NCBI GenBank assembly: GCA_017347445.1
Contig: AP021856.1
Span: forward strand, 496,001 to 560,000
Length of the DNA: 64,000 nucleotides
From: Candidatus Brocadia pituitae
GTDB taxonomy: Bacteria > Planctomycetota > Brocadiia > Brocadiales > Brocadiaceae
Reading direction: 5' to 3'
Shown: positions 23,405 to 27,252 of the stretch, one piece after another
How the letters are laid out: each line of letters begins with the position of its first letter
How positions within the stretch are numbered: the first letter of the stretch is position 1
Made by a program: the position numbers and the translations under genes
The notes under the pieces: model-generated
Told to the model about the DNA's origin: nothing
The model's input: only the letters and a program-made list of their open reading frames with translations
Databases searched by the model: none

Positions 23405-23409
23405 CATAA

Positions 23410-23443
23410 TACCTGAATCTTGCACGTATGCAAGATTCAGGTA
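23410..23443. terminator. Perfect 15-bp hairpin after MFS remnant
   Basis: TACCTGAATCTTGCA pairs exactly with TGCAAGATTCAGGTA around a CGTA loop, starting 6 bp after the fragment's stop. No T tract follows, so it is terminator-like rather than a proven intrinsic terminator. Confidence 0.5.
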
Positions 23444-23513
23444 TATGCTTACTCTCAGGCACAAGAAAAATTGTCAGATATTCTTCAAGAATAAGAAAAA
23501 GAAGGTAACAATT

Positions 23514-23836: not shown

Positions 23837-25213
23837 TTACGGTATATTGACGTCCCGCAGTATCTCTTCTGCTTCGTGTCTCTTTGCCTCTAGTTCCCGG
23901 CTTTTTATTACAGGATAAGTCTTGGCATCTATTAAGCGTTTGAAGGGTTCTGAGAGGTGTGTAAGGTTGTTTGATGCAGTGCGTTGGATTTCATGGATTG
24001 CTGGCAGGTTGTAGCATAACCTTCCAGCGTTTATCATCGGCATTAACAAGGGAATTCCTCCCAATTCTTCACCTTCTAGCCCGATTATGTCCTTCAAAAA
24101 ATTCCCTGCTTCATCAACGAAACGGTAGACCTGTTTCTTGCATGGATAGGTAAGTTTATCTTTGCTGAATTTCATCCTTGGAATAATTTTCCCGTAATGT
24201 TCCTGCTCGACCAGCTTATAGACGCCGCCCAGTGCCGGGGCGTCTTTGGATGTAACCATTTCGGTGCCCACGCCAAAGGAGTCAATGGGCGCACCATTTT
24301 TAACCAAACCACCGATACGGTCTTCATTCAAATCTCCACTAGCGATGATCTTGACATGCTGTAATCCTTCGGCGTCCAAGATTCTTCGCAATTCCTTGCT
24401 CAATTCACTTAAATTTCCGCTGTCAATACGAACTCCTTTTAGCTTCTTGCCAATCAAGGCGGCATGCCGTGCCCCAACTAAGGTGTCGTAGGTATCGATG
24501 AGCAGGGTAGTATCATCAGGAAATATTTCATGAAATTTATTGAAGGAGTCTTGTTCATTATCAAAGGCCATGACCCACGAATGAGCAATGGTTCCTATTG
24601 CTGGTATGCCGAGTTCATAGGCAGCGAACACATTTGAAGTTCCTTCGCAGCCGCCGATAAAAGATGCCCTGGCTGCAAGGACGCCTGCCTGCGGACCATG
24701 AGCACGTCGCGTCCCAAAATCAATTACTTCACGTCCCTGAGCTGCCAATACAACCCTTGACGCCTTTGTTGCTATGGAAGTCTGAAAGTTAATTGTTGCA
24801 AGTAGATAAGTCTCCATGATTTGTGTCTCAATAATAGGGGCAGTGACCCGCACGAGGGGTTCTTGTGCAAAGGCGACAGTGCCTTCCGGCATAGCATACA
24901 CATCACCACTGAAGGTAAAATTTTTTAAGTATTCAAAAAATTTTTCACTTACTTTATGAAAAACCGGCAATTGCCTTAAATATGCTATCGCTTCTGCTGA
25001 AAATTTTATGTGGGTGAGATAGTGCAGCGCCTGTTCAAGTCCCGCAGTTACTAAATAAGAACGATTTTCAGGTAGGCGGCGAACAGATAATTCAAAGGTT
25101 GTTACATCCTCCATCTTCTGTTCAAAATATCCGGCAGCCATAGTAAGCTGGTAGAAATCGGTAAGGATGCCGAGTGAATTTTCGGGCAGGAAGAGAGATC
25201 GTGGTTCATTCAT
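23837..25213 (-). CDS. pncB: Nicotinate phosphoribosyltransferase
   Basis: 458 residues. Matches the NAPRTase family: LTDFYQLTMAAGYF at the start, a DFGTRRAHGPQAGVLAARAS block, the conserved IGTIAHSWVMAF with the catalytic His region, GVRIDSGNL, and SFGVGTEMVTS near the phosphate site. It makes nicotinate mononucleotide from nicotinate and PRPP with ATP, salvaging NAD. The start ATG at 25213 fits the family N-terminus. It stands alone between two decayed regions. Confidence 0.95.
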   Translation of the reverse strand: MNEPRSLFLPENSLGILTDFYQLTMAAGYFEQKMEDVTTFELSVRRLPENRSYLVTAGLEQALHYLTHIKFSAEAIAYLRQLPVFHKVSEKFFEYLKNFTFSGDVYAMPEGTVAFAQEPLVRVTAPIIETQIMETYLLATINFQTSIATKASRVVLAAQGREVIDFGTRRAHGPQAGVLAARASFIGGCEGTSNVFAAYELGIPAIGTIAHSWVMAFDNEQDSFNKFHEIFPDDTTLLIDTYDTLVGARHAALIGKKLKGVRIDSGNLSELSKELRRILDAEGLQHVKIIASGDLNEDRIGGLVKNGAPIDSFGVGTEMVTSKDAPALGGVYKLVEQEHYGKIIPRMKFSKDKLTYPCKKQVYRFVDEAGNFLKDIIGLEGEELGGIPLLMPMINAGRLCYNLPAIHEIQRTASNNLTHLSEPFKRLIDAKTYPVIKSRELEAKRHEAEEILRDVNIP

Positions 25214-25476: not shown

Positions 25477-25534
25477 AAAAGTGTGACATGGCACATAAGT
25501 GCGACGTCGCACTTATGTGCCATGTCACACTTTT
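25477..25534. repeat. 58-bp perfect palindrome
   Basis: The left 29 bases (starting AAAAGTGTGACATGGC) are the exact reverse complement of the right 29, with no spacer; symmetry stops at the next base pair on each side. It lies in the 530-bp gap between pncB and a sensor gene, 210 bp before the sensor's likely start. It could extrude as a cruciform, bind a dimeric protein or mark a mobile-element scar. Confidence 0.9.
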
Positions 25535-25743
25535 CATACGCCATTTTCATATCGCTACTGTTCAACCTTCCTTTTTTCATAAGGTTTAATGATTCAAGAC
25601 GTTGTGCGCAATTTCGAAAACATTCTTGTTTGTTTTCCGGACATGGCATTTCTTTTGTTCTATATCATGACAAGGACAAGCCCCGTGTTATCAGAGGATA
25701 CAAAGCAAAGGGCCTGATGAGATGGTCAAGGGAGTTTGATACC

Positions 25744-27252
25744 ATGAATCCGTTTGTATCAATCAAGAACAAGTTGTTTGTGTTAACCCTCTGCAGCTCT
25801 TTGATACCGATAACAGTAATTTCTGGAGTATATTACCTCACTGTCAGCCACACTCTCAAGTACCAGACCTTTGGGCAATTAAAGGCAGTTGCAGCATCAA
25901 CAAGACATCATGTACGAACTTTTATGGAGACCAAAAAGATACGAACCGCAGATTTCAGCTCTGATGGGTACATACGGAATAGCCTCGAGACAATCATTCG
26001 AGGAAATGTCGTAAAACAGAGTAGCACCGTTAAGTTAAATACATACCTTTCAAAGAAAAAGTTACCGTTAGATAGTCATCTTATGGCAATTGCTATTGTG
26101 GGAAGAGATGGCAAGGTTATTTCATCTACCAATAAAAAGTTAATCGGCAAGGATGTATCCGACCAGGAAGTATTTTCGCACGGGAAAAGCATGGACTACG
26201 GCACAACCTATATTAAGTCACGTTGCGATTCTTACCTTGCAGCAAATTGCATATTAACCAGTGCTCCAATTGTCTCGCAATATAGCACGGAGTTGCTTGG
26301 TATTCTTATCAACATTTATTATCTTACGGGCCTGAACGAGATAACAACCAATCGTGTTGGAATGGGAGAGACCGGTGAAGTGTATTTAGTTAACAGAGAC
26401 AAGATAATAATTACTGATTCGCGTTTTATCCACCGCGCTTCACTTCATTTGGTTGTGAATACAGAACCCACGCGCAAGATTGTTGAAAGCAACGAAGAAA
26501 TGGTTGGAATCTATCCCGCTTACAGGGGTATACCTGTTATTGGCGCCTCAATGGATCTCCCTGAATATGGGTGGGTGCTTCTGGCAGAGATCGATAAAGC
26601 GGAGGCATTTGCCTCAGTGAAGACATTGGGTATTATTGCATTAATTTTAGGGGTAGTTAGCACTGCTGTGGCGACGAGCGTGGGAATAGTTTTTGCCGTT
26701 TCCGTATCAAAACCTCTTAAGGATTTCTCCAGGATAACAGAGAGATTCGTACGCGGCGGAATGGATTATCGATTAATGGTAAATCGCAAAGATGAGATTG
26801 GCGCCCTTGCCGGCAGTTTTAATGCTATGGCTGATACCCTCACAAAGGAAATCACAGAACACAAGCGCGTTGTAGAAGCGCTGCGTATGAGCAACGAACA
26901 GACACAGGCAATTCTGGACAATACGACGGCAGTTATTTATCTGAAAGATACGGCAGGTCGTTATCTACTGATCAATCAGCAATTCGAAAAACTCTTTCAC
27001 GTGACAAAAGAACAGGTTGTAGGGAAAACAGACTACGATCTTTTTCCAAAGGAAAATGCGGACGTCTTCCGGCGGAATGACCTCAAGGTGACTGAAAAGA
27101 GAACTTCCCTTGTGATTGAAGAGGTTGCCCCGCACGATGATGGCATGCATACGTATATTTCATTAAAATTTCCCATGTACGATACCGTTGAAGGTCTTTA
27201 TGGAGTTTGCGGTATCTCCACAGACATTACAGGAAAGCAGCAACGGCTTTAA
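25744..27252 (+). CDS. Cache-HAMP-PAS sensor protein without output domain
   Basis: 502 residues from ATG 25744 (AGGGAG about nine bases upstream); another ATG at 25717 would add nine residues, and the open frame runs further back through the palindrome. Order: membrane helix 1 (about 9-35), an extracytoplasmic Cache-like domain (about 36-290), membrane helix 2 (LGIIALILGVVSTAVATSVG), a HAMP domain (KDFSRITERFVRGGMDYRL), then a PAS domain ending ISTDITGKQQRL at the stop. Histidine kinases and cyclases of this build continue past that point; here the output module is missing. It may be a truncated sensor or signal through a partner. Confidence 0.8.
   Translation: MNPFVSIKNKLFVLTLCSSLIPITVISGVYYLTVSHTLKYQTFGQLKAVAASTRHHVRTFMETKKIRTADFSSDGYIRNSLETIIRGNVVKQSSTVKLNTYLSKKKLPLDSHLMAIAIVGRDGKVISSTNKKLIGKDVSDQEVFSHGKSMDYGTTYIKSRCDSYLAANCILTSAPIVSQYSTELLGILINIYYLTGLNEITTNRVGMGETGEVYLVNRDKIIITDSRFIHRASLHLVVNTEPTRKIVESNEEMVGIYPAYRGIPVIGASMDLPEYGWVLLAEIDKAEAFASVKTLGIIALILGVVSTAVATSVGIVFAVSVSKPLKDFSRITERFVRGGMDYRLMVNRKDEIGALAGSFNAMADTLTKEITEHKRVVEALRMSNEQTQAILDNTTAVIYLKDTAGRYLLINQQFEKLFHVTKEQVVGKTDYDLFPKENADVFRRNDLKVTEKRTSLVIEEVAPHDDGMHTYISLKFPMYDTVEGLYGVCGISTDITGKQQRL

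Follow-up and report, generated by a model that had tools for sequence, protein, structure and literature searches.

The 58-bp perfect palindrome that lies between two divergent genes of Candidatus Brocadia pituitae very probably serves as a docking site for a protein that activates genes. It belongs to a family of near-palindromes that stand at a fixed distance upstream of sigma-54-like promoters and, in most cases, of c-di-GMP-I riboswitches. We consider it highly likely, from sequence comparison, that the palindrome acts as an upstream enhancer at which three dimers of a sigma-54 activator each have a site, and that its regulon is tied to c-di-GMP and cell-surface proteins. The best reading is thus a composite enhancer that serves a sigma-54 regulon linked with c-di-GMP riboswitches. 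The stretch analysed here (the window) is 64,000 nucleotides long and covers positions 496001–560000 of a single-contig genome of 4,075,302 bases (genome G000); its relevant features are as follows.

25477..25534, no strand: perfect palindrome of 58 bp without a spacer, put forward as an enhancer (upstream activating sequence) with three sites for a sigma-54 activator, from the family alignment and its position relative to promoters
25481..25496, no strand: left dyad, a variant of GTGTGnCATGnCACAC with one mismatch, from the alignment (genome 521481–521496)
25499..25512, no strand: central dyad GTGCGACGTCGCAC (genome 521499–521512)
25515..25530, no strand: right dyad, the reverse complement of the left dyad (genome 521515–521530)
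25644..25659, plus strand: sigma-54 −24/−12 promoter-like site TGGCATTTCTTTTGTT, matching 10 of 11 consensus positions and beginning 109 bases past the palindrome
25666..25715, plus strand: decayed remains of a c-di-GMP-I riboswitch aptamer (its 5′ half), resembling the intact leaders of other copies
25744..27252, plus strand: proposed target gene, encoding a dCache-HAMP-PAS sensor protein of 502 aa (domain search)

A sequence-only reading had described the palindrome as a 29-base arm followed at once by its exact reverse complement, and this is correct. It is the longest spacerless palindrome of the window, where the runner-up is a hairpin at 23409–23444 with 16-bp arms and a 4-base gap. Base composition predicts about 3e-13 spacerless palindromes with 29-bp arms in the window and about 2e-11 in the 4.08 Mb genome, so the element is far beyond chance in either. 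Folded as single-stranded DNA it reaches −33.3 kcal/mol (z = −13.6 against shuffles), and a permissive Rfam scan for RNAs within it gave chance hairpin matches alone, mostly to microRNA families and far under the gathering scores. Beyond the 58 bp the symmetry breaks off abruptly, which leaves no extended fold-back. The flanking genes are pncB (23837–25213, minus strand) and the dCache-HAMP-PAS gene (25744–27252, plus strand).

The genome of the window has about 14 copies of the palindrome. A DNA search recovered five more full-length copies and several partial places, and a half-site pattern matched 38 places against 5 with a reversed control, the outer units being repeatedly 34 bp apart. When the copies are aligned, the consensus AAAAAGTGTGACATGGCACACAAGTGTGACGTCACAnAAGTGTGCCATGTCACACTTTTT resolves into three small abutting dyads that together make one near-palindrome of about 60 bp. 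The GTG, CATG and CAC core letters are almost invariant while the letters in between vary, as in a dyad motif for protein sites at an enhancer; all three dyads are present in the full-length copies of the alignment, and their spacing is nearly constant. Each dyad would then be one activator site. The generalisation made earlier that operators are shorter fails here, as the palindrome is built of three neighbouring dyads, each the size of an operator.

Searching Brocadiales genomes for copies, as had been suggested, proved right and decisive: model R1, built from 20 copies all from the genus Brocadia and hence less sensitive elsewhere, has matches in 11 of the 11 genomes of this genus examined. 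An exact degenerate pattern run against 84,980 species genomes matched 15 stretches, 12 of them in Candidatus Brocadia, 2 in a Planctomycetia bacterium (a contig found in G003, which is of this genus) and 1 in Candidatus Scalindua. For the comparisons below we fetched 79 loci among the matches listed and confirmed a model match in each; this set includes the single-unit partial copy L123 from the genome DNA search and leaves out a weak site in G010, and the near-identical duplicate L149 was dropped from the symmetry, motif-distance and A/T-run counts.

Symmetry statistics were taken from the 62 copies of exactly 60 nt. Variable letters pair across the entire element in 58% and 53% of cases (expected 34% and 33%), while within each dyad they pair below expectation (21% and 26%, expected 32% and 33%); three perfect cores were observed against 0.03–0.1 in shuffles. 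Independent local symmetry of each dyad as the sole constraint is therefore rejected. In the AA/TT linkers pairing falls short of expectation (35% and 32% vs 50% and 47%), so the mirror symmetry is not uniform. Copies that adjoin the regulator gene discussed below have 0, 0, 1, 3, 1, 0, 1 and 6 mismatches, whereas 69 other copies average 5.6. Shared ancestry contributes to this pattern. Selection for symmetric binding or fold-back correction could be the source of the symmetry.

Comparison of the flanks of the 79 loci (among the matches listed) found a block that is conserved on one side. Alignment of the 52 oriented loci that have a scored downstream block resolves this flank into a sigma-54-type promoter and a leader with a strong terminator at its end. 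Having noticed the pattern in the alignment, we scanned for TGGCAY-N5-TTGCW (at least 9 of 11 matches), which we take to be the sigma-54 −24/−12 consensus. Among the matches listed, 64 of the 79 loci have such a motif pointing outward, while an inward one is present in 3 of 79 and shuffles give 7.5%; the remaining 15 have no good motif within the scanned range. The distances peak sharply, with 49 motif matches in the 100–119 bp bin over a background of about 1 per bin (78 loci, among the matches listed). Thus both the family and the window copy lie within the roughly 80–200 bp upstream of a −24/−12 promoter that is expected of an enhancer. Three loci (L128, L153 and L184) have sigma-54-like motifs on either side of the palindrome, and their palindromes may serve divergent promoters.

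Beyond the promoter, c-di-GMP-I aptamers (Rfam RF01051 and RF03167) lie 136–347 bp from the palindrome in 50 of the 79 loci (among the matches listed), and all 50 point away from it. The palindrome is not part of these riboswitches; it is DNA upstream of the promoter, and the window's own aptamer has decayed. The genome of the window has 44 c-di-GMP-I riboswitches above the Rfam cut-off, of which 9 have a palindrome and 35 have none upstream. Some aptamers (L114 2223–2349, minus strand, and the L156 and L161 leaders) have an A where most have a G, at a position that separates c-di-GMP from cGAMP riboswitches, and ligand specificity among these aptamers may vary.

The domains of 18 target genes were looked up together with the activator (for the two-sided locus L153, the gene from one side was used). 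They include HD-GYP, sigma-54 activators (two), trypsin, autotransporter, caspase with PEGA, kelch, SBBP propeller, IgGFc-binding, Ig-like, matrixin, haem peroxidase and TonB-dependent receptor domains; several of the 18 genes matched no family. Judged by domains and N-termini, many targets look like exported, secreted or surface proteins. A link of sigma-54 to the cell exterior has been proposed as a general theme, in the accessible part of PMC3162934.

The window as a whole has no Rfam match at the gathering score, the permissive scan gave none for c-di-GMP-I, and the terminator half of the riboswitch is absent, the coding sequence beginning at 25744. The window gene thus appears to have kept the enhancer and promoter and lost the riboswitch. 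Neither a kinase nor a GGDEF domain was found in the 25744–27252 protein, nor any output domain after the PAS, so the sensor may be truncated. In the related genome G008 this gene pair stands without the palindrome, although its intergenic region has diverged too far to show a precise empty site; the window copy is therefore no ancient, conserved site belonging to this gene. As a related gene in G004 has a palindrome at another genomic place, the association of palindrome and gene is evolving. An ancestral pncB operator is rejected, since none of the 10 congeners (0 of 10) has the palindrome upstream of pncB.

The candidate activator is an NtrC-type REC-PAS-AAA+-Fis protein encoded at genome positions 2366460–2368226. 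Of the genome's 25 Sigma54_activat matches, it is the one beside the perfect copy L110. The order there is a histidine-kinase-like gene (a label read off the sequence rather than from a family search), the activator gene, the palindrome about 35 bp past its end, a sigma-54-like site, and a PAS-HD-GYP gene. A palindrome stands beside this activator in 15 of its 20 loci, in the same place in several species; at 3 of the 5 loci that lack one, the contig end cuts in within 3–106 bp. As a control, the genome's 20 other sigma-54 activator loci were examined; a palindrome is near 1 of them, a locus that is a target in its own right. In Candidatus Scalindua, a related activator gene is flanked by two copies, one on each side (L086 4861–4918 and 6872–6931).

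Occurrence across genomes points the same way. Among the 33 genomes compared within the family, 21 of the 23 with the activator have at least 4 model matches, as against 0 of the 10 without it; the cut-off of 4 was picked after seeing the data, and with at least 1 match p = 0.0012, a value that overstates the case because the genomes are related. The co-occurrence holds within genera (G020 against G040 and G041; G021 against G013; G010 against the other ten). Four genomes without the activator have 1–3 matches each, the strong one being in G011 (E 1.1e-11), an incomplete genome. Genomes rich in the site have a candidate cognate activator, as an enhancer would demand; G014 (no palindromes) and G045 (two) are exceptions in that they have the activator. 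In G014 the recognition helix is changed, reading SRST where 14 of 14 other extracted orthologues have SRRT (15 proteins with a readable helix, G014 included, from the 20 activator loci). From adjacency, co-occurrence and this helix we infer that the REC-PAS-AAA+-Fis protein binds the palindromes. It shares REC, AAA+ and Fis domains with the PEP-CTERM response regulator family (TIGR02915) and other NtrC-type regulators, but its score against TIGR02915 is 348 bits where the curated cut-off is 502.6; all named NCBIfam matches listed fall under their curated cut-offs, so no named equivalog applies to it. Among the options first put forward, that of a protein-binding site is the one supported, by the fixed spot before sigma-54-like promoters, the near-invariant cores, and the co-occurrence and adjacency of the activator; an origin-like or recombination structure found no support.

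The placement of the palindrome beside the regulator gene also bears on a different explanation, a bidirectional intrinsic terminator or insulator in which an A-run, the long stem and a T-run end transcription from either side. A4 and T4 runs do flank the stem, giving the stem-then-T-run order of a terminator, and conservation is stronger for the T-run on the promoter side (all four T in 38 of 51 copies) than for the A-run on the far side (all four A in 25 of 51 copies); in 10 of the 15 activator loci with a palindrome it lies 30–78 bp beyond the 3′ end of the protein match, where a terminator could be expected. The window copy, however, sits between divergent genes with no gene end near it, many arms have 5–7 mismatches, and a terminator would not predict a fixed promoter distance or invariant dyad cores. 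We regard this explanation as unlikely, and a plain terminator is rejected as the main role on the divergent-gene placement and promoter association, although a secondary insulator role could exist alongside that of an enhancer.

The same enhancer role might instead be played with a different binder, either another sigma-54 activator or a factor outside the sigma-54 system. The genome does have 20 other strong Sigma54_activat loci, and one activator, that of L114, is a downstream target, as are its counterparts elsewhere. That activator, the one other whose profile was compared, was rejected as the regulator, since its profile is mismatched (it is missing from 11 of 21 palindrome-rich genomes), and only the REC-PAS activator adjoins the palindrome across genera. 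We consider another binder improbable.

A REP- or MITE-like palindrome spread by a transposase, its promoter association due to chance or exaptation, would account for dispersed copies of diverged sequence, for the absence of the window copy upstream of pncB in 10 congeners, and for the one copy near a Y1-transposase fragment. REP elements with RAYT (Y1) transposases are likewise short palindromes dispersed between genes. Here, by contrast, no partner transposase was found, that fragment being the only one of 11 Y1_Tnp loci with a copy nearby; in most loci the placement and orientation are fixed relative to promoter and riboswitch, and the flank blocks are a promoter and a leader, not transposon ends, with no target duplications noticed by eye. 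The earlier idea of a mobile-element footprint is accordingly very unlikely. Long spacerless palindromes are a known class of artefact, yet an assembly fold-back or sequencing error, which had also been suggested, has a negligible chance of explaining this one, as its flanks are not mirrored and related copies of other sequence occur in many independent assemblies, with different near-palindromes in 11 of 11 genomes of the genus and several at the same place beside the regulator.

For the enhancer with the REC-PAS-AAA+-Fis protein as its activator, we propose that the three abutting dyads would take three dimers of the protein (2366460–2368226), which, bound side by side, would make a hexameric AAA+ ring. 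This ring would loop to sigma-54 RNA polymerase at the −24/−12 promoter about 110 bp away and open it. At most copies the transcript would next meet a c-di-GMP-I riboswitch with an intrinsic terminator, so that output would need both the activator's signal and the right c-di-GMP state. For the window copy, where enhancer and promoter are retained and the riboswitch has decayed, the target would be the dCache-HAMP-PAS gene at 25744.

This arrangement resembles the triple enhancer of norVW in E. coli, where, in the accessible parts of the sources, three adjacent NorR sites upstream of a sigma-54 promoter scaffold the oligomer (PMC2941729; also PMC6296734). Unlike the NorR sites, the dyads here abut into one palindrome of about 60 bp, and most targets also have a c-di-GMP riboswitch; where NorR (GAF-AAA+-HTH) has a GAF domain, the candidate has REC and PAS instead, and it scores 333 bits with the NorR model (cut-off 476). 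The sigma-54 activator CbrB of Pseudomonas putida also uses three subsites, which the accessible part of PMC6296734 describes as non-palindromic and variably spaced, whereas the dyads here are spaced nearly constantly. The literature covered, mostly outside subscription journals, gave no account of this element, nor of anammox sigma-54 enhancers coupled with c-di-GMP riboswitches.

A more far-reaching proposal, which we advance tentatively as a possibility that may well prove wrong, is that a single mirror-symmetric element pre-assembles the hexamer, its symmetry kept by selection or fold-back correction because it works both ways, sometimes on two divergent sigma-54 promoters. With the riboswitches it would form a two-input switch of an anammox-specific surface and extracellular-matrix regulon that includes its own c-di-GMP phosphodiesterase.

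Anammox bacteria are responsible for a major step in the nitrogen cycle and form granules in wastewater plants, and little is known of their gene regulation. The present analysis yields a specific candidate activator, its likely DNA site, promoters, a list of targets of which many are seemingly secreted or surface proteins, and a tie to c-di-GMP. The enhancer reading is testable in vitro, without genetics in an anammox organism. It would also make a long perfect palindrome an example of a composite enhancer, and neither an accident nor an artefact.
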